Assembly: GCF_014610845.1 (NCBI RefSeq)
Contig: NZ_JABTCG010000004.1
Span: 248,001-312,000, forward strand
Length of the DNA stretch: 64,000 bases
Origin: Maribacter arenosus
GTDB lineage: Bacteria; Bacteroidota; Bacteroidia; Flavobacteriales; Flavobacteriaceae
Reading direction: 5' to 3'
The notes under the pieces are model-generated. The model saw only the letters and a program-made list of their open reading frames with translations. It ran no database searches and was not told the DNA's origin. The first letter of the stretch is position 1. Each line of letters starts with the position of its first letter. A program made the translations under genes and the position numbers. Shown one piece after another: positions 4,062-35,242 of this stretch.

Positions 4062-4148
4062 TTATTCTTTCGCAGCTACTGCGATATAAATCTTAAAAAA
4101 CAACATTAATATCAAGTAGGTGCCGAGGGTTATAATATAATTGTCCAT
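4062..4148 (-). CDS. Putative 28-residue single-pass membrane peptide
   Basis: An ATG-started frame on the minus strand encodes MDNYIITLGTYLILMLFF followed by KIYIAVAAKE. It has one hydrophobic helix with charged ends, and lies 44 bp upstream of the cyclo-ligase start on the same strand. I do not recognise it; there is no visible Shine-Dalgarno sequence. It could be a real small protein or chance. Confidence 0.25.
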   Translation of the reverse strand: MDNYIITLGTYLILMLFFKIYIAVAAKE

Positions 4149-4565
4149 GCGTAATGCGATTTTGATGCTCTAAATGTAACGAAAAAAATATTACAAAATC
4201 TATAAAGTGCACTTTTTTATCGATGAAATACACTTTTTATTGAAATTTTAACAATTTGATAACGATAAGAAGTTGAAATTTTGCTTTGGAATACGTAACA
4301 GTACGTATGTCACTAGGAAGGAAACTTTGGTTGATGCAGTAACCCAATTTACTCTGGATATGGCTAAATATAATGAAAAATATAAAATGAATTTCCTAAA
4401 TATAAGTATTATTTCATTTCCTTGAACTTATTAGCATGAACTTTGCCATTACGATTGCCGAATAGTCGTACAGGGAAGCAAAAAATATGGAAAACTGCTT
4501 ACATTTGATCAAAAACATAGTAATTTAACAGGGAGCATAAGCCGTTAAATTCCCATACTTCATCA
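4149..4565. other. Intergenic region before uvrC
   Basis: About 420 bp of AT-rich DNA with no gene I can support. One plus-strand frame, roughly 4270-4420, is open for some 50 codons (contains TLVDAVTQFTLDMAKYNEKY) but has no usable start and no known relative. The rest may hold the uvrC promoter; I could not pick out a clear one. Confidence 0.4.
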
Positions 4566-6353
4566 ATGCCCCAATTGCCTTTAAAAATACAGATCAGTAC
4601 ATTGCCGAACAGCCCCGGGGTTTATCAGTTTTATGATGCTGAGGATAAGATCTTATATGTTGGCAAAGCCAAGAACCTTAGAAAACGGGTCTCATCGTAT
4701 TTTACCAAGAACCATGAATACGGTAAAACCCGTATGCTGGTTAAGAAAATAGTAAGTATAAGGCATATTGTGGTGTCAACGGAGTCTGACGCCCTATTGT
4801 TGGAGAATAATCTGATAAAAAAATACAGGCCCCGCTATAATGTACTGCTCAAAGATGATAAATCATACCCATGGATCTGTATCAAGAAAGAACGTTTCCC
4901 AAGAATATTCCCAACCCGTAAAATGATCAAGGACGGTTCTGAATATTTCGGCCCCTATACAAGTATGGGAACGGTCAAAACCTTATTGGATCTTATCCGT
5001 AATATCTATCCCATACGAACCTGTAATTACGATTTGTCCCGGGAAAAGATCGAGGCAGGAAAATATAAGGTATGTCTTGAATATCATTTAGGGAACTGTT
5101 TAGGGCCTTGTGAGGGGCTGCAAAGCAGTACTTCATATGACACACAAGTGAATGATATTCGTGAGATCCTTAAAGGTAATTTCAAATCGTCCTTGCAATC
5201 CTTTAAGGACCAGATGAAGGCCCTCGCTAACGATATGCGTTTTGAAGAGGCTCAACAAATCAAGGACAAGGTCGAGATCCTTGAAAATTATCAATCGAAA
5301 ACGACCATAGTAAATCCGAAAATCAATAATGTCGATGTCTTCTCTATCCTTACCGATGATACTTTTGCTTATGTCAACTTCTTACAACTTTCGCATGGAT
5401 CTATTATAAGGTCACATACCATGGAAATAAAAAAGAAGTTGGATGAAAAGGACGGGGATTTGTTGCAATTGGCGATTATTGAATTACGTCAACGGTTCAA
5501 TTCGGAATCAAAGGAGGTATATCTCCCCTTTAAGGTAACTGTAGGGCCCGATATAAAAGTTACCGTTCCAAAACTAGGGGATAAACGTAAGATCCTTGAT
5601 CTTTCCATTCGCAATGCCAAATACTTTAGACAGGAAAGATTCAATCAAATCAAGATCGTAGACCCTGAGCGGCATACGAAAAGGATAATGGCCCAAATGA
5701 AAAAAGACCTTCGGCTATCCGAAGAACCCAGACATATCGAATGCTTCGATAACAGTAATATGCAAGGTAGTAACCCGGTAGCTGCCTGTGTTGTATTCAA
5801 GAACGGAAAACCTTCAAAGAAAGAGTATCGTCATTATAATATAAAAACAGTGGAAGGACCTGATGATTTTGCCTCTATGGAGGAGGTGGTCCTAAGACGT
5901 TATAAAAGATTATTGAACGAAGAGCAACCTTTACCACAATTGATCATCATAGATGGGGGGAAGGGTCAGTTATCCTCTGCCTTGAAAAGTTTGGATTTTC
6001 TTGGGTTAAGGGGCAAGATTGCCATTGTGGGTATTGCCAAAAGATTAGAGGAGATTTATTTCCCGGAAGATTCCATACCCTTATATTTGGATAAGAAATC
6101 CGAAAGTCTTAAGATTATCCAACAACTTAGGAATGAGGCCCATCGATTTGGCATTACCTTCCATAGGAACAAGAGGAGCAAGGCGGCTATAAATTCAGAA
6201 TTGGAGAATATCGATGGGATAGGTGAAAAAACTGCGGGTGAACTGTTGAAAAAATTCAAATCGGTGAAAAGGATCAAGGAAGCATCCCTTGAAAATTTGA
6301 GCGCGGTGGTAGGAATTGCAAAGGCAAAAAAAATATATGAAACTTTTCATTGA
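4566..6353 (+). CDS. uvrC: Excinuclease ABC subunit C
   Basis: The dual-incision nuclease of nucleotide excision repair, acting with UvrA and UvrB. The 595 residues show the full order of domains: the GIY-YIG nuclease at the N-terminus (GVYQFYDAEDKILYVGKAKN, residues about 14-33), a cysteine cluster in the middle, the UvrB-binding UVR helix (FEEAQQIKDKVEILENY, about 223-239), the RNase H-like nuclease domain with ECFDNSN and IIIDGGKGQ, and the C-terminal helix-hairpin-helix (IDGIGEKTAGELLKKF). Length is typical. The patatin-like gene starts 21 bp after the stop. Confidence 0.97.
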   Translation: MPQLPLKIQISTLPNSPGVYQFYDAEDKILYVGKAKNLRKRVSSYFTKNHEYGKTRMLVKKIVSIRHIVVSTESDALLLENNLIKKYRPRYNVLLKDDKSYPWICIKKERFPRIFPTRKMIKDGSEYFGPYTSMGTVKTLLDLIRNIYPIRTCNYDLSREKIEAGKYKVCLEYHLGNCLGPCEGLQSSTSYDTQVNDIREILKGNFKSSLQSFKDQMKALANDMRFEEAQQIKDKVEILENYQSKTTIVNPKINNVDVFSILTDDTFAYVNFLQLSHGSIIRSHTMEIKKKLDEKDGDLLQLAIIELRQRFNSESKEVYLPFKVTVGPDIKVTVPKLGDKRKILDLSIRNAKYFRQERFNQIKIVDPERHTKRIMAQMKKDLRLSEEPRHIECFDNSNMQGSNPVAACVVFKNGKPSKKEYRHYNIKTVEGPDDFASMEEVVLRRYKRLLNEEQPLPQLIIIDGGKGQLSSALKSLDFLGLRGKIAIVGIAKRLEEIYFPEDSIPLYLDKKSESLKIIQQLRNEAHRFGITFHRNKRSKAAINSELENIDGIGEKTAGELLKKFKSVKRIKEASLENLSAVVGIAKAKKIYETFH

Positions 6354-25882: not shown

Positions 25883-26545
25883 TTATAATTGGGCAATCTT
25901 GTTTATATCAGCTCCTGCAAGGTGTTTTAAGAGTTGAGGGCTACTGTACAAATTAATCATTGCACGCCCTATGTTTGAAGTAGTTGTTACCGATTTCATT
26001 CTTTTTAATACAGGAAAAATCGGCTTGGTTATGATATATAAGGAATTGTACAATTTGGTTTTGGATTTTACGCCACGTACCGGTAGAATAGCTCCTGGTC
26101 TAAAAGCATAAGCATCTTTAAACCCCTTGTTTAAAATCATATTCTCGGTTTTACCTTTAACTCGTGCCCACATCGAGTTACCTTGTTCACTGCCGTCTGT
26201 TCCCGCACCTGAAACGTATGTGAAAAGCATATTAGGATTTGCGTTATAGGTTGCATTTACAAGGGCTTCTGAAATTGAAAAAGTTAGTTTGTAGTAGGCT
26301 TCCTCATTTAAACCAGCCGATGTTACACCCATACAATGAAAACAGGCGTCATAATTTGTAAACTCATGTTGGATAGGGCTAAAATCAGTAAAATCTTGAT
26401 GTATAATCTCTTTTATTTTAGGATGTGAAATATCAATTGGGTTTCTATTGATTAGTAAAACATTTTCAACGGTTGCATCATCTATACATTCCAACAACAC
26501 CCCTTTACCAACCATACCCGTTGATCCTGTTATTATAACTTTCAT
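25883..26545 (-). CDS. NAD(P)-binding oxidoreductase, atypical SDR
   Basis: A 220-residue Rossmann-fold protein like the HTATIP2/NAD(P)H-binding group. The nucleotide loop GSTGMVGKG sits at residues 7-15 and a YVSGAGTDGSEQG segment in the middle; no catalytic YxxxK is evident, as is usual for this branch. It is the last gene of a four-gene minus-strand operon (SDR, membrane protein, AraC regulator, this gene) with gaps of 26, 10 and 7 bp. Substrate unknown. Confidence 0.87.
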   Translation of the reverse strand: MKVIITGSTGMVGKGVLLECIDDATVENVLLINRNPIDISHPKIKEIIHQDFTDFSPIQHEFTNYDACFHCMGVTSAGLNEEAYYKLTFSISEALVNATYNANPNMLFTYVSGAGTDGSEQGNSMWARVKGKTENMILNKGFKDAYAFRPGAILPVRGVKSKTKLYNSLYIITKPIFPVLKRMKSVTTTSNIGRAMINLYSSPQLLKHLAGADINKIAQL

Positions 26546-26552
26546 TAAAGTT

Positions 26553-27467
26553 TTAATTTAAATTTCTGTATTCAGAAGGACTGAACCCTGTTTTTGATTT
26601 AAACACTTTACTGAAGTGTTGCGGATACTCAAAACCAAAATCGTAGGCAATTTCGCTTACCGAAGAGTTTGAGTTCAACAATTTGGTTTTCGCTTCTTTA
26701 ACCATATGAAGTAAAATATGTTCTTTTGCCGTTTTTCCTGTTTCAACCTTAAGTAGATCACTTAAATAATAGCCCGATAAATGCAGTGCTTCCCCACATT
26801 GTTGCACGGTAGGCAAACCGCTTTCGACCAATAGATGTGAAGTAAAATAGTTTTTTAAGAATTTCTCGAATTTAACTAAATAGTCATGGTTATAGTTACT
26901 GCGCGTATAGAATTGACGGTCATAAAATCGCTTGCTGTATTTTAAAATACTTTCCAAATTAATGATAATCAATTCTTGGGTGTGCTTATCAATATTTTGG
27001 TCTATCTCGTTGGCGATATTGGTTACAAAATCCAATAGAATTTTCTTTTCTTTTTCTGAAACGTGTAAGGCTTCATTATTTTCATATTCAAAAAAAGAAT
27101 AGTCCGAAATTGTACTAGCCAAAGGTGAGTGTCTTATAAAATCGGGGTGAAAAAAAATATCCCAACCTTCACCATCTTGTATTCGTTGGTTTTGGTCCTC
27201 TTCAAATTGCATCACCTGCCCTGGTGCTGTAAATATCAAGCTACTGTCTTGATAGTCATACGATTTTCGACCATATTGAAAAGCGCCTACACCAATTTCT
27301 TTTAAGCTAATAATGTATAAGTCAAAACTGAATTTGCCTGCAGAAACTTGTAGTTTTTGCTTCAATTCCCTCGTTGAAATAACAGAGATTAAAGGGTGTG
27401 CAGGACTTGATAAACCAAGCGCTTTATGAATGCTACTAATGCTATCTATGTTAATGATGTCTTTCAT
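26553..27467 (-). CDS. AraC-family transcriptional regulator
   Basis: A 304-residue DNA-binding protein. The C-terminal 100 residues are a double helix-turn-helix with the AraC signature (VSEIAYDFGFEYPQHFSKVFK then TGFSPSEYR, here ending RNLN); the N-terminal part is a cupin-like sensor (PGQVMQFEEDQ). It lies inside the operon whose upstream region carries the 70-bp element at 28985, also present before the SDR gene at 29918. Autoregulation and control of both units are likely but not shown. Confidence 0.94.
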   Translation of the reverse strand: MKDIINIDSISSIHKALGLSSPAHPLISVISTRELKQKLQVSAGKFSFDLYIISLKEIGVGAFQYGRKSYDYQDSSLIFTAPGQVMQFEEDQNQRIQDGEGWDIFFHPDFIRHSPLASTISDYSFFEYENNEALHVSEKEKKILLDFVTNIANEIDQNIDKHTQELIIINLESILKYSKRFYDRQFYTRSNYNHDYLVKFEKFLKNYFTSHLLVESGLPTVQQCGEALHLSGYYLSDLLKVETGKTAKEHILLHMVKEAKTKLLNSNSSVSEIAYDFGFEYPQHFSKVFKSKTGFSPSEYRNLN

Positions 27468-27477
27468 AATTTTAAAA

Positions 27478-27984
27478 TCAGTTCTTTTTTTCTGCTAATT
27501 GCAGTTGTTCATTATAGGCTTCAATTCTGGCATAGGCAGTACCGTCTATCAACAAAATAACCACAAGCATGGCAATAGTTGTAATCATGCTCGCCCGCCA
27601 AATTGGGGTGTTAACAAAGAAAATAACCAGTGCACATGCCACGATAATCAACGGAATGGCGGTGAAAACCACGTTTTTATATTCCTTTAATGTTGCTTCT
27701 GTACGCTCAATTTCTGATATTACAAAAGCCGTGGAATCTGTGTTGTAGGCCGTTTCAAATTGTGCTATTCTTGATTTATTGGTAAAAAATAATCCAAGAC
27801 CAATGATTGTTAGTAAGGCTCCTGCCACTAAGGTGGGAATGATGTAGGCTCTTGCCATATCAGTTTTTCCCAATTGCCAAAACCCTAGACTTGCCGCCAT
27901 AAATAGCACTCCAAACAGAATGAAGAAAGGTGTTGAAAAAAGTTCGGCTCTTGCCCATTCTGTTGCAGTTTTTAAAATATCCAT
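27478..27984 (-). CDS. Four-helix inner-membrane protein
   Basis: A 168-residue protein with four hydrophobic helices, two on each side of a charged segment of about 40 residues (FETAYNTDSTAFVISEIERT). I do not recognise the family; similar proteins seem common next to AraC regulators and oxidoreductases in Bacteroidota. It is 26 bp after the SDR gene and 10 bp before the AraC gene, so it belongs to the same operon. Confidence 0.8.
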   Translation of the reverse strand: MDILKTATEWARAELFSTPFFILFGVLFMAASLGFWQLGKTDMARAYIIPTLVAGALLTIIGLGLFFTNKSRIAQFETAYNTDSTAFVISEIERTEATLKEYKNVVFTAIPLIIVACALVIFFVNTPIWRASMITTIAMLVVILLIDGTAYARIEAYNEQLQLAEKKN

Positions 27985-28010
27985 ATCTTATTAATTTTGA
28001 ATCTTCTAAT

Positions 28011-28961
28011 TTAAAAATTCCACTGAAAACCAGTAGCCTTTTCTGATACTTCCCACAACCTCTCCATCACAGGTTTATCTTTTGCATGTGGCTCTAATTT
28101 GCATTCGCCAACTGGACCAGTCCAATAATTTCGTCCTGTAGGGCCATAGAATCCATTTTGATCTAAGTCAGGTTCTGTGGCACACATCAATTCTGGGTAT
28201 GATCCTTTTTCAGCCGATTGCACCAATGGTGTCAACTTCATTATTTGCCAAACGAAGCGGGTCATTAAACTCCCGCTGGTCTTAATTAACGATGTTGAGG
28301 AAGCTCCAGGGTGACAAGCATACACTTTAACATTGGCCTTGCCCTCCTTTTTTAGTCTATCCTGTAATTCATAGACACACATGATCTGGGCCAATTTGCT
28401 CTGGCTATATACACTATTAGGACTGTAGTTTTTATCCCAGTTCATATCGTCAAATTGTATGGTCTTAATACCTAAATTATAGCCCATACTACCTACGGTT
28501 ACTATTCGTCCTTTGGATTCTTCTATAAGTGGGTAGAGCAGTCCCTGTAGCAGAAAGTTACCGTAGTGGTTTACACCCAGCTGACTTTCAAAACCATCAG
28601 CCGTAAACGTTTGTGTTGGCACTTGGGCAATGGCAGCATTACATAGCAACGCATCGATTTGAGGAACTGTCTTAAGAACCTCTTCTGCGGCCCTTTTTAC
28701 AGAAGCTTGTTCTGCCAAGTCCATTTGTATGGACAATACATTTATATTATTATTAAGCTCTTGCTTTAAAGTAGCGATGGTGTCCGCTGTTTTTTTTGGG
28801 TTTCGATTAAGCATCACCACTTTTGCTCCCTTTGACAACAATATTTTCGCCGCTTCAAATCCTGTTCCGCTTGTAGTACCTGTTATGACGTATGTTTTGC
28901 CATTTAAATTCCCTATTCTTTCGGGTGTCCACCCTTGATTGCCCAATTGATTTGTATTCAT
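28011..28961 (-). CDS. Short-chain dehydrogenase, protochlorophyllide-reductase-like
   Basis: A 316-residue SDR. The cofactor loop is TGTTSGTGFEAAK near residue 33, NAA follows at CNAAIAQ, and the active-site pair is YSQSK (Tyr and Lys). The C-terminal region (LCATEPDLDQNGFYGPTGRN) is the type found in light-dependent protochlorophyllide reductase relatives, common in non-photosynthetic bacteria where the substrate is unknown. It heads the operon with the AraC regulator; the shared upstream element lies 24 bp before its ATG. Confidence 0.9.
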   Translation of the reverse strand: MNTNQLGNQGWTPERIGNLNGKTYVITGTTSGTGFEAAKILLSKGAKVVMLNRNPKKTADTIATLKQELNNNINVLSIQMDLAEQASVKRAAEEVLKTVPQIDALLCNAAIAQVPTQTFTADGFESQLGVNHYGNFLLQGLLYPLIEESKGRIVTVGSMGYNLGIKTIQFDDMNWDKNYSPNSVYSQSKLAQIMCVYELQDRLKKEGKANVKVYACHPGASSTSLIKTSGSLMTRFVWQIMKLTPLVQSAEKGSYPELMCATEPDLDQNGFYGPTGRNYWTGPVGECKLEPHAKDKPVMERLWEVSEKATGFQWNF

Positions 28962-28984
28962 TTCTGTCTCATATTGTTTTAATA

Positions 28985-29054
28985 GTACAAAATTCTAGAA
29001 AGAGGTATTTTCTAACGTACACATTTTAAGGAAGAATGAATACTTTTTCGTGAA
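28985..29054 (-). promoter_or_regulatory. Duplicated 70-bp upstream element, copy A
   Basis: This stretch aligns without gaps to copy B (29942-30011) with about 50 of 70 positions the same. Both end exactly 24 bp before a start codon. The most conserved parts on the plus strand are CAAAATTCTA at the gene end, ATTTTAAGG in the middle and AATACTTTTT at the far end. It probably holds the promoter and an operator, perhaps for the AraC protein of this operon. Confidence 0.7.
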
Positions 29055-29081
29055 TTTCAATATATTTTGAATCTTAGATCC

Positions 29082-29918
29082 TTATAGATTTGCCGCAGTT
29101 TGCAACTGTTCCATTACCAGCGCATCGTATGCTTTATCACTCATGGAAGCCCTGGTTTCAATATTTTCTTTCGCCATATTTCCAACCGGATAGCGAGTTT
29201 CGGGATCTGCGGAATCCATAGCTTTTTCTATCACTTTTGCCACAACAATAGGATCACTCGATGCATCAGGGTTAAATGTATTAACAAGTCCGGCTAAAAT
29301 TGTTTTTTTAAGTTCCGAATACGCACTGTTTTTACTCTCAGCCGCGTGAAGTAAGGTGTTTTCGGCAAGTTCACTTTTTACCATGCCTGGTTCAATGATG
29401 ACTACTTTAATACCAAATTGTTTCACTTCAAGTCTCAATACATCACTCCAACCTTCCAGGGCCCATTTTGTAGCCCCATACCAGCCCATAAGTGGCATAT
29501 AAATTTTTCCTCCCATAGAACTCATATTAAAGATGATGCCTGCTTTTTGCTTTCTCATTATGGGAAGTACAGCTTTGGTAACTTCAACTAAACCAAAAAG
29601 GTTTACTTCAAACTGTTGTTTTGCCATTTCATAACTGGTGTCTTCTATTGGGCCGTAAATGGAATAACCTGCATTGTTTATTAAAACATCAATTCTACCT
29701 TCTGTTTTAATGATGGATGAGATTACTTCTTTAACTTGTTGATGCTTGATTACATCCATTTCTTTAGCAACGCCACCTTTTTTAATGATATCGCCCATTT
29801 TGTCAACTCTCCTGGCCAAGCCATAAACTTTATGTCCTTTTTCTAATAGATAAAGAGCTGTTGCTTTACCAATACCGGAAGATGCGCCTGTGATAACTAT
29901 AATTTTTGAATTGTTCAT
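29082..29918 (-). CDS. SDR-family oxidoreductase
   Basis: A 278-residue classical short-chain dehydrogenase. The NAD(P) loop GASSGIGKA is at residues 11-19, followed by NNAGYS, a Ser in FNMSSMGG and the active-site YGATK; the sequence after it (WALEGWSDVLRLEVKQFG) fits the SDR c-type used for ketone or aldehyde reduction. Arg residues after the second strand (LARRVDK) suggest NADPH. It is transcribed alone, but its upstream region repeats the element found before the neighbouring SDR operon, so the two are probably induced together. Confidence 0.92.
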   Translation of the reverse strand: MNNSKIIVITGASSGIGKATALYLLEKGHKVYGLARRVDKMGDIIKKGGVAKEMDVIKHQQVKEVISSIIKTEGRIDVLINNAGYSIYGPIEDTSYEMAKQQFEVNLFGLVEVTKAVLPIMRKQKAGIIFNMSSMGGKIYMPLMGWYGATKWALEGWSDVLRLEVKQFGIKVVIIEPGMVKSELAENTLLHAAESKNSAYSELKKTILAGLVNTFNPDASSDPIVVAKVIEKAMDSADPETRYPVGNMAKENIETRASMSDKAYDALVMEQLQTAANL

Positions 29919-29941
29919 TTTGTGGTTTTTAATAAATTATA

Positions 29942-30011
29942 GGGCAAAATTCTAAAAACCAATACTTTCAGATGTATATATTTTAAGGGAAAGCGAATAC
30001 TTTTTAAGGAA
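29942..30011 (-). promoter_or_regulatory. Duplicated 70-bp upstream element, copy B
   Basis: Second copy of the element at 28985-29054, 24 bp before the ATG at 29918. It contains two AAAGTATT-like direct repeats on the minus strand about 35 bp apart, in line with AraC-type half-sites. Confidence 0.7.
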
Positions 30012-30068
30012 AGGTTGTCTATTTGGGTATAGAGTGGTGTTTGTGCTTGCAAATGGCATACAACATTA

Positions 30069-30091
30069 GGATAACATCAATGATGTTATCC
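30069..30091. promoter_or_regulatory. Perfect 23-bp palindrome
   Basis: GGATAACATCA and its exact reverse complement flank one central base. There is no T tract on either side, so an operator for a dimeric repressor is more likely than a terminator. It lies about 150 bp upstream of the SDR gene and about 90 bp beyond the stop of the flavodoxin-like gene. Confidence 0.45.
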
Positions 30092-30182
30092 CATGTATAG
30101 AACTAAGTTATAAATTAATTGATAAGTGATGGTTTATTTCAACTAAAAGGACCTGGACCAATGCTTTTTACCAAACACCCTT

Positions 30183-30686
30183 TTATGGCGTTGTTTTTTT
30201 ATCTATTATTTGGGCAAATTCGGCTATTTTTTCGATATCGAGTTTATCCTGAAACGTATGTAGATCGGTAATGTATTCCATTCCCAAATATTCAGCCGAT
30301 TTTTTAAAGGGAAGCCAAAAAGCATCTTTTAGATTATCGCCATTAGAACAACTAATAACGGCCATGTATTTATTCCGTAATTTTCGCCCCAACTTTTTTT
30401 CTATACGCAATAGGTCGGTCAGCCGATCAAAAAAGACCTTCATGATACCACTCATCGAATACCAATACACAGGCGTTGCAAAAATCAAGACATCATAATT
30501 GTCGGTTATTCTTTTTATTAGCTTAATGAAATCGTCATTTCTATTCAAATGCTTGTAATCAAAGTGCCCGATATCATAATCTTTCAGGTCGATCAAATCC
30601 CAATCGGATATTCGCATTAATTCGGTAACGACTTTTTTCGTTTCGCCATTTTTTCTCGCGCTTCCTAAAATTATGACTTTTCCCAC
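30183..30686 (-). CDS. Flavodoxin-fold NAD(P)H:FMN/quinone reductase
   Basis: A 167-residue protein of the NADPH-dependent FMN reductase family. The phosphate loop GSARKNGETKKV is at residues 8-19 and the flavin-binding FATPVYWYSMSG about 70-81; the family reduces FMN, quinones or azo and nitro compounds. The only nearby start is GTG at 30686. It is probably monocistronic. It could work with the neighbouring oxidoreductases in electrophile or redox detoxification, which is inference. Confidence 0.87.
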   Translation of the reverse strand: MGKVIILGSARKNGETKKVVTELMRISDWDLIDLKDYDIGHFDYKHLNRNDDFIKLIKRITDNYDVLIFATPVYWYSMSGIMKVFFDRLTDLLRIEKKLGRKLRNKYMAVISCSNGDNLKDAFWLPFKKSAEYLGMEYITDLHTFQDKLDIEKIAEFAQIIDKKTTP

Positions 30687-30890
30687 TTCACATTGTTTTT
30701 AAAAAATGTCTTGCTCTAAAGTACTAAAACGGATCAATAGTTGAGTTTTGGTTTAATTTTTAACTGCTCATGTGGTTTATTCGTTAATCTATTAATTCAA
30801 ACATTCCATCGACACGTTCTTGACCACTTGAAGGTGTTTGAAGAAAACGTAACGGCAGAAATCCCTTTTATACCTCAATTTTTTTCAACA

Positions 30891-34076: not shown

Positions 34077-34138
34077 GTCTCACTAAAAAGTACAGTAGTT
34101 TCGTTTTCTAAAAATGAAGTCTCACTTTTTCATGAGAC
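34077..34138. promoter_or_regulatory. GTCTCAC repeats upstream of the barrel gene
   Basis: GTCTCACT occurs at 34077-34084 and again at 34119-34126, 42 bp apart, and GTCTCA is also inverted at 34133-34138 (TGAGAC). They lie 55-116 bp upstream of the frameshifted barrel gene and reach into the end of the membrane AraC gene. Paired direct repeats are typical of AraC or LytTR sites. Confidence 0.4.
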
Positions 34139-35242
34139 ACTGTGAATGTAGAGGCTTGGGGATACACCTTCAAATTTTTTGAAGGCACGGTAGAAAGATG
34201 CTTTTGAATTGAAACCACAGTTATAGGCAATTCCAATAATGGAAAAGTGTTTGTTTTCTTCGTAAATACATTGTTTTTTGAACTCTTCTATCCGGTACTT
34301 GTTGATAAAATCGAAAAAAGTTTGATCCATATGCGAGTTTAGTATTTCGGAAAGGTATTCAGTTTTTACATTTAATAATTTACTAAGCTTTAATAGATTT
34401 AACTCAGGTTCTAAAAACGGTTTTTCTTCATTCATGAAGAGTTGTAATTTTTCAATAAAACCCCTTTCATCATTGTGGGCGTATTTTTTATTATTACGCA
34501 GAAGATGTTCCTTATTCGGAAATCCGATAAAAATGCTTTTTTGCTGCACACCAAAAAATCCGATTATCAAAACATAAACAGAAGCAAAACTGTAAGTAAT
34601 AATCATTAAGGTTTTATAAGGTGCGATATGAAATATCATATCAAGATTGAAAAGAGCTACATTCACAAGGTAGATCGATAATGAGGCTATAGTAAGGATT
34701 CGCAACCATTTTAAATCAAAACTATCTGTTTTTGAGAAAAAATCATTCAATTTTCGCTGATATGTCTTAATCAGATTTAAGGCCCACAGGTTATAGGTAA
34801 TTGTGGAAATCCCTATGCTCAGAATAGAAATTTTATAGAAAACCTGATCTGTGAAAAGTTCATTTTTTACAATAGTTATTTTTTCAATTTCAGGTAAGCT
34901 GATAAAGCGAATATAATGTATTACCAGAAAAATAATAAATGGCAAAAAATGTAATATATAAAAAGGCTTAAAAGTGAATTTTGGATTGCCTAATGATTTT
35001 ATGTAAAACCATAATGCCGGCCCATGTAAAAACAATATGAGCCAATTTAGATTTATTGCTTGTGGGAAGGGGAAATCGTTTTGAATGTTATGTAATTCAA
35101 TATATGCTAATAGAATGGTTAGGGCATACAATGCAATGATAATTCCCAAATACACGTCAGATTTGACCTTATCTTTTTTGTTAAATAGTAATAGAATTAG
35201 AAATAGTGCCTGAAATATCCCAATGATCAAAATGTAGTTCAT
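34130..35242 (-). CDS. Membrane-bound AraC-type transcriptional regulator
   Basis: A 370-residue protein with about seven hydrophobic helices in residues 1-235 and an AraC double helix-turn-helix at 265-370 (ETEYLSEILNSHM, IIGIAYNCGFNSKASFYRAFK). This is a common Bacteroidota design in which the membrane part may sense a signal and the cytoplasmic part binds DNA. The 57-bp element upstream at 35292 is repeated before the beta-helix gene, so the regulator may control itself and that gene. Confidence 0.93.
   Translation of the reverse strand: MNYILIIGIFQALFLILLLFNKKDKVKSDVYLGIIIALYALTILLAYIELHNIQNDFPFPQAINLNWLILFLHGPALWFYIKSLGNPKFTFKPFYILHFLPFIIFLVIHYIRFISLPEIEKITIVKNELFTDQVFYKISILSIGISTITYNLWALNLIKTYQRKLNDFFSKTDSFDLKWLRILTIASLSIYLVNVALFNLDMIFHIAPYKTLMIITYSFASVYVLIIGFFGVQQKSIFIGFPNKEHLLRNNKKYAHNDERGFIEKLQLFMNEEKPFLEPELNLLKLSKLLNVKTEYLSEILNSHMDQTFFDFINKYRIEEFKKQCIYEENKHFSIIGIAYNCGFNSKASFYRAFKKFEGVSPSLYIHSVS

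Follow-up and report, generated by a model that had tools for sequence, protein, structure and literature searches.

A duplicated 70-bp element of Maribacter arenosus as a probable AraC-dependent promoter, and an apparent change of regulator at a dehydrogenase gene

Why two dehydrogenase genes that are only distant relatives should each be preceded, at the same distance, by the same 70-bp element is the question raised by a locus on the minus strand of the window, the whole 64,000-nucleotide stretch of Maribacter arenosus DNA analysed here. In minus-strand order the locus comprises an FMN-reductase-like gene (30686-30183), copy 2 of the element, the short-chain dehydrogenase gene SDRb (29082..29918; 278 aa), copy 1 of the element, a second short-chain dehydrogenase gene, SDRa (28011..28961; 316 aa), a small protein gene (27478..27984), an AraC-type regulator assigned below to a clade A (AraC-A; 26553..27467; 304 aa), which is the predicted binder of both elements, and an NAD-dependent epimerase/dehydratase-family gene (25883..26545), which also adjoins AraC-A in several relatives.

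The locus and its duplicated element

From SDRa onward the intergenic gaps measure 26, 10 and 7 bp, making an operon from SDRa to the epimerase, its last gene, likely. The small protein has no Pfam or NCBIfam match, is probably membrane-bound judging from its hydrophobic stretches, and is found near SDRa in many operons with a B-type operator (described below) as well. Also identified near the operon was a second, larger AraC-type protein (34130-35242; 370 aa) with an N-terminal half that reads as hydrophobic. About 60 bp upstream of copy 2 lies a perfect inverted repeat, GGATAACATCA/TGATGTTATCC (30069-30091), with 11-nt arms, 1 nt between them and no T run, which may be an operator for some other regulator or mark where the FMN-reductase-like gene ends.

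Copy 1 (28985-29054) and copy 2 (29942-30011), both on the minus strand, align without a gap at 50 of 70 positions, and in each the last base lies 24 nt from the A of the ATG (28961 and 29918), i.e. with 23 nt between; copy 1 begins 27 bp past the SDRb stop codon. Comparison of the two intergenic regions gave a top 70-mer identity of 51 at the best offset, against 29-39 in 60 first-order Markov shuffles of both regions. By 10-bp blocks, identity was 1-5/10 across the 120 bp upstream of the element, 6-8/10 within it, and 1-4/10 over the 60 bp past it, except for one block at 8. A search pattern of 23 fixed bases taken from both copies, allowing up to three mismatches, matched only copies 1 and 2 in the 4,168,565-base genome (0 mismatches, by construction); the same pattern reversed had one match, and the expectation within the window was 0 (100 shuffles). 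Furthermore, a sequence model of 24 such elements from relatives recovered the two copies at E-values of 2.3e-11 and 6.2e-11, the next match standing at 0.1, such that neither the pattern nor the model search found a further strong A-type site in this genome.

At the protein level, SDRa and SDRb share 31% identity over 143 aa (E 5e-13), and since they are only distantly related, the likeness of the DNA is no by-product of a recent gene duplication. An origin of the repeat by gene duplication was therefore rejected, as was a mobile repeat, given only two copies found in the genome. These results uphold what the first-pass annotation had read from the sequence, namely a gapless 70-bp duplication of about 50 identities placed 24 bp before two start codons, genes in between that are not obvious copies of each other, and an AraC regulator encoded within the first operon. 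A riboswitch or structured RNA leader was also considered, and was rejected upon finding no Rfam match at the gathering threshold in 26500-30700.

Operator, promoter and regulator

Each copy contains two 17-bp direct repeats with a 21-bp period, forming a putative operator at 29974..30011 in copy 2 (half-site 1, 30011-29995; half-site 2, 29990-29974; TTCCTTAAAAAGTATTC then TCCCTTAAAATATATAC on the coding strand) and at 29017..29054 in copy 1 (29054-29038 and 29033-29017), with WTCnGTAAAAtGTATAC as the consensus of both half-sites across relatives. This period of about two helical turns, next to a core promoter, is common to both copies and the 24 aligned elements. Starting 21 nt after the operator is a candidate minus-7 box, GAATTTTG, at 29945..29952 in copy 2 and 28988..28995 in copy 1. 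The Bacteroidota consensus for this box is TANNTTTG, located at -12 to -5 in F. johnsoniae (PMC6847099, in the excerpt used here). The box at this locus agrees with five of the six fixed bases of the primary-sigma consensus, its first base being G and not T, and the complete TAnnTTTG is seen in many relatives. With this alignment the downstream half-site would reach to about -34, the expected start of a -33 element. With operator, spacer and -7 box contained within 70 bp, each element is very probably a complete activator-dependent promoter for an AraC-type regulator.

Although operators were selected on 38 bp, with no promoter information, TAnnTTTG starts at +21 nt after the operator as the best or tied-best position (2 ties) in 24 of 26 sites, the remaining two being 21-bp-shifted registers that overlap listed sites. 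A functional link between operator and promoter thereby gains independent support. The 24 elements also align without a gap. The distance from operator end to called ATG in relatives spans 7-149 nt (54-60 nt for the majority of the closest loci; one site lacks a called ATG), the shortest values (7, 33 and 46) stemming from doubtful start calls. What is kept among relatives is thus the operator-to-minus-7 distance, not the distance to the ATG.

The regulator itself carries a C-terminal double helix-turn-helix (PF12833, 69 bits, cut-off 33.6; PF00165, 49.6 bits, cut-off 26.6). No Pfam match was found in the N-terminal half of AraC-A, for which a structure model built from a five-sequence alignment (mean pLDDT 79.5, below 50 at residues 59-62 and 64-71) predicts, with some reserve, a cupin-like ligand-binding and dimerisation domain as in AraC. 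Foldseek matched the model to the AraC regulatory domain (1xja; TMt 0.57-0.63) and RhaR (5u93/5u9e; 0.67-0.70), and also to AraC-family DNA-binding domains. The best E-values were obtained for full-length Rns, CsvR and ToxT at low TM-scores (0.25-0.36), presumably due to a different placement of the domains. Assignment as AraC proper, the arabinose regulator (NF007860), was rejected at 48.8 bits against a curated cut-off of 208.

Taken together, we consider it highly probable that AraC-A (26553-27467) activates both SDRb and its own, autoregulated SDRa operon from the two 70-bp promoters, with SDRa having been taken over from a related regulator, AraC-B. From promoter geometry and conservation we infer binding, activation and the involvement of a ligand. 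An AraC-A dimer would bind the two 17-bp half-sites head to tail, 21 bp or two helical turns apart, with the downstream half-site ending where the Bacteroidota -33 element would begin, and could from there help RNA polymerase to engage the -7 box, 21 nt downstream. Copy 2 would drive SDRb, and copy 1 would drive SDRa, the small protein, the AraC gene itself and the epimerase; a ligand bound by the cupin-like N-terminal domain would result in positive autoregulation. That the protein mainly represses at this site is improbable: AraC itself is capable of both repression and activation (PMC7499043, in the excerpt used here), and the two copies, about 960 bp apart, could in principle be bridged, but an operator that ends just upstream of -33 and at a fixed 21 nt from the -7 box suits activation better than blocking, and the lack of any further strong A-type site found in the genome also speaks against it.

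Association of the element with AraC clade A

AraC relatives were collected from 60 and then 397 genomes, four named records and the SDRa loci, and a tree of 59 sequences placed the window AraC in clade A, with 24 members and support of 100/97. Left out of both the tree and the 24 were L034 (genome G027; broken frame with no 250-residue open stretch), L077 (a duplicate of L053), and those SDRa loci in which the AraC gene ran past the 1.5-kb flank or could not be located. Using an iteratively trained operator matrix, applied with one locus left out at a time to the region upstream of the AraC gene (4 kb or less), a site scoring at least 15 was found at 19 of 24 clade-A loci; with the window excluded, the matrix still includes Aquaticitalea lipolytica and similar close relatives. 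As controls, the region downstream of the clade-A AraC gene gave one site in 24, corresponding to the B operator of an adjacent operon, the antisense search gave 0/24, and shuffling reached a maximum of 14.9. The A matrix scored above threshold at none of four clade-D loci, at one of seven in the mixed group C (27.2; L044, on a long branch), with antisense scores of 24.5 and 15.2 at two other group C loci, and at two of three clade-B loci (26.4 and 22.3). Its reach thus extends to a broader family of sites, and A and B are not told apart by this matrix alone.

The five loci with no upstream operator at threshold (both clade-A genes of L042, together with L043, L054 and L085) are all diverged members at 46-55% identity. 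At position 421 of L042, the 420 bp upstream were scored, and the sequence further upstream is L041, in which the seed matrix found no match of 9 or more. L041 and L042 come from one genome (G049) in which several AraC genes of clades A, B and D lie among many small enzyme genes, with no A-type operator at either clade-A gene.

Scanning the 60 genomes with the sequence-only model of the 24 elements gave matches below E 0.005 in 10 of the 11 genomes encoding an AraC of at least 47% identity (the exception being G049) and in 0 of the 49 others, with both cut-offs having been set after the lists were seen. Seven of the ten positive genomes had supplied training sites to the model; G027, G040 and G048 had not. 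The G027 match lies upstream of an SDR, a small protein and a broken AraC, that of G040 precedes an apparent aldo/keto reductase (by sequence reading) near another AraC gene (46%), and in G048 the match and the AraC gene lie on separate contigs. The broken gene (L034) is clade-A-like and interrupted by one TGA, one TAG and one TAA over the match; the upstream element is still recognisable. In G010, three copies of the element stand before three genes of an AraC-A cluster (L033:3039-3108, 4085-4154 and 5145-5214).

A search of related genomes, proposed by the first-pass annotation as a check on whether the element stays with its AraC gene, thus finds it doing so at 19 of the 24 clade-A loci. 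Homologous operons without the element, which the annotation had counted against its reading, do occur, at the five diverged loci above. Together with the operator-plus-promoter form and the position of the AraC gene within the operon, the site following its regulator rather than the enzyme supports the annotation's suggestion of a self-regulated AraC regulon of SDR enzymes. Its further suggestion of a toxic aldehyde as signal is unsupported. Ten neighbouring proteins scanned comprise SDR, alpha/beta hydrolase, polyketide-cyclase-like, SnoaL-like, epimerase and metallo-beta-lactamase-fold members and one with no known function, and these families, along with the aldo/keto reductase of G040, are too mixed for a signal to be named.

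Were a different regulator of the cell to target the element, its nearness to AraC-A would be incidental. Contig C20 of this genome does encode two AraC relatives (about 41% identity), but these belong to another clade, their genes have low A-matrix scores (9.4 and 10.4) and, tentatively, another repeat before a divergent gene, and the strong A-type matches accompany clade-A-like AraC genes (10/11 versus 0/49 genomes), leaving this explanation very unlikely. The apparent direct repeats on C20 are ATCCGTAAnAATGGTA and ATTCCGTAATCnnGGTA (L047:6974-7011 and L048:6489-6526). A duplication scar or mobile repeat with no regulatory function, to which two copies about 1 kb apart might point, has a negligible probability: the genome yielded only two copies, the match decays to background level where the promoter begins and ends, the two SDR genes did not duplicate recently, and numerous other genomes conserve this architecture. 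Activation by AraC-A remains our preferred reading.

Regulation of SDRa and comparison with known systems

Matches to SDRa at E 1e-110 or better were identified in 31 of 397 genomes, from which 30 loci were returned. Upstream of SDRa, 27 of the 30 carry a B-type operator, CCAAAAAGTATACaacaTtCGAAAATcnGTATAA, again with a 21-bp period, which a B matrix scores higher than the A matrix does. Within 1.5 kb, 26 of the 27 encode an AraC with 75% or more identity to AraC-B from G006 (in some cases over the part covered), while L095 shows none in the stretch examined (up to 1.5 kb of flank). In eight of the 27 B-type upstream regions the A matrix also exceeds 15, some of these scores being higher than accepted A sites (L080 17.0, L087 21.8), and the B score is at least 24 higher. 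At 25 of the 27 B sites the -7 box begins at +22, and at the other two at +21. That SDRa normally belongs to AraC clade B, with a different operator, is new here.

Among the 30 loci, an A operator at SDRa was found only in this genome (32.6 with the A matrix versus 6.7 with the B matrix) and in A. lipolytica (G163; 38.6 versus -1.7), both of which encode AraC-A; L118 has neither operator. AraC-B is absent from these two genomes, the best match to the G006 query being their own AraC-A (44%), and is present in G010 at 94%. In a midpoint-rooted tree, the two A-regulated SDRa proteins nest inside a group of 28 (support 98/94), and L108 and L094, both with B operators, fall outside it. Regulation by B is accordingly the probable older state, as judged from the tree. 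With the A operator present at SDRa in two genomes that both lack AraC-B, the enzyme would have passed from B to A and its operator changed too, such that SDRa appears to have exchanged both regulator and switch.

Comparison of 19 A with 21 B proteins, with helices placed by the predicted model, further revealed that both recognition helices differ: L238 (18/19) in A corresponds to T (21/21) in B, H284 (18/19) to Y (21/21), and K287 (16/19) to R (19/21), with neighbouring residues common to both. These differences fit operators that share AAAA and GTATA and differ elsewhere.

Several loci bear on how the present layout arose. In G010, the A cluster (three elements, AraC-A at 67%, epimerase) directly adjoins a B cluster (B operator, SDRa at 83%, AraC-B, small protein). 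SDRb has a single other match at E 1e-85 among the 397 genomes (56%), in an A-type operon of G189 ordered operator, SDRb, AraC-A and epimerase. SDRb is missing from the A. lipolytica locus, with no match at E 1e-85 in that genome, and the single element before SDRa there is identical to copy 2 at 65 of 70 positions and to copy 1 at 49. Across the spacer and -7 part, copy 1 is identical to copy 2 at 21 of 32 positions and to A. lipolytica at 20; for five other A elements the count is 13-18, and for two B elements 11-13. Copy 1 most likely arose by duplication of copy 2, support for this being only moderate. In the simplest history, SDRa and the small protein would have entered an A operon already possessing SDRb, AraC-B would have been lost, and duplication of the A promoter would have given copy 1 and replaced the B-type promoter, with A. 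lipolytica later losing SDRb together with copy 1; the order of these steps we infer.

We think it likely that this represents a near-complete natural regulator exchange, in which AraC-A captured an enzyme gene originally under the control of AraC-B, AraC-B disappeared, and the promoter was exchanged in full, including the operator and its usual spacing (22 to 21 nt), and in which the A and B clades with their matched operators would offer a specificity code that can be read for a large set of as yet uncharacterised regulators in Flavobacteriia. The regulation is of an ordinary kind in an uncharacterised family, to which the exchange and the rigid, predictable promoter geometry add interest. 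To our knowledge, few activator sites with fixed promoter geometry are known in Bacteroidota, and searches of open-access journal full texts on the regulator group, AraC sites in Bacteroidetes and regulator displacement returned nothing describing this system among the matches listed. The locus offers a precise, testable operator for an uncharacterised Bacteroidota AraC group and suggests that operators remain tied to their regulators when an enzyme passes from one regulator to another. Pairing proteins with sites for A and B could reveal how residues of the recognition helices map onto bases, and target genes in other genomes could be listed by means of the operator model.

Compared with known systems, the DNA-binding domain is homologous to those of the AraC-family activators SoxS and MarA, which have no N-terminal domain and bind a single site as monomers. 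Figures of 17 bp and 21 bp also apply to araI of E. coli. As at E. coli araBAD (AraC, araI1-araI2), a two-domain AraC-type regulator is paired with two tandem half-sites, of which in araI the downstream one adjoins the core promoter and recruits RNA polymerase (PMC4760080 and PMC7499043, in the excerpts used here). Unlike araBAD, the locus has a different site sequence, a Bacteroidota -33/-7 promoter, SDR enzymes in place of sugar catabolism, and a regulator inside the operon. It also parallels the AraC-B/SDRa operons of Flavobacteriaceae, sharing a direct repeat of 21-bp period, a fixed -7 distance, SDR and AraC genes and, often, a small membrane-type gene, and differing from them in half-site sequence, in their 22-nt spacing (25/27; 21 in two) and in a separate AraC clade.
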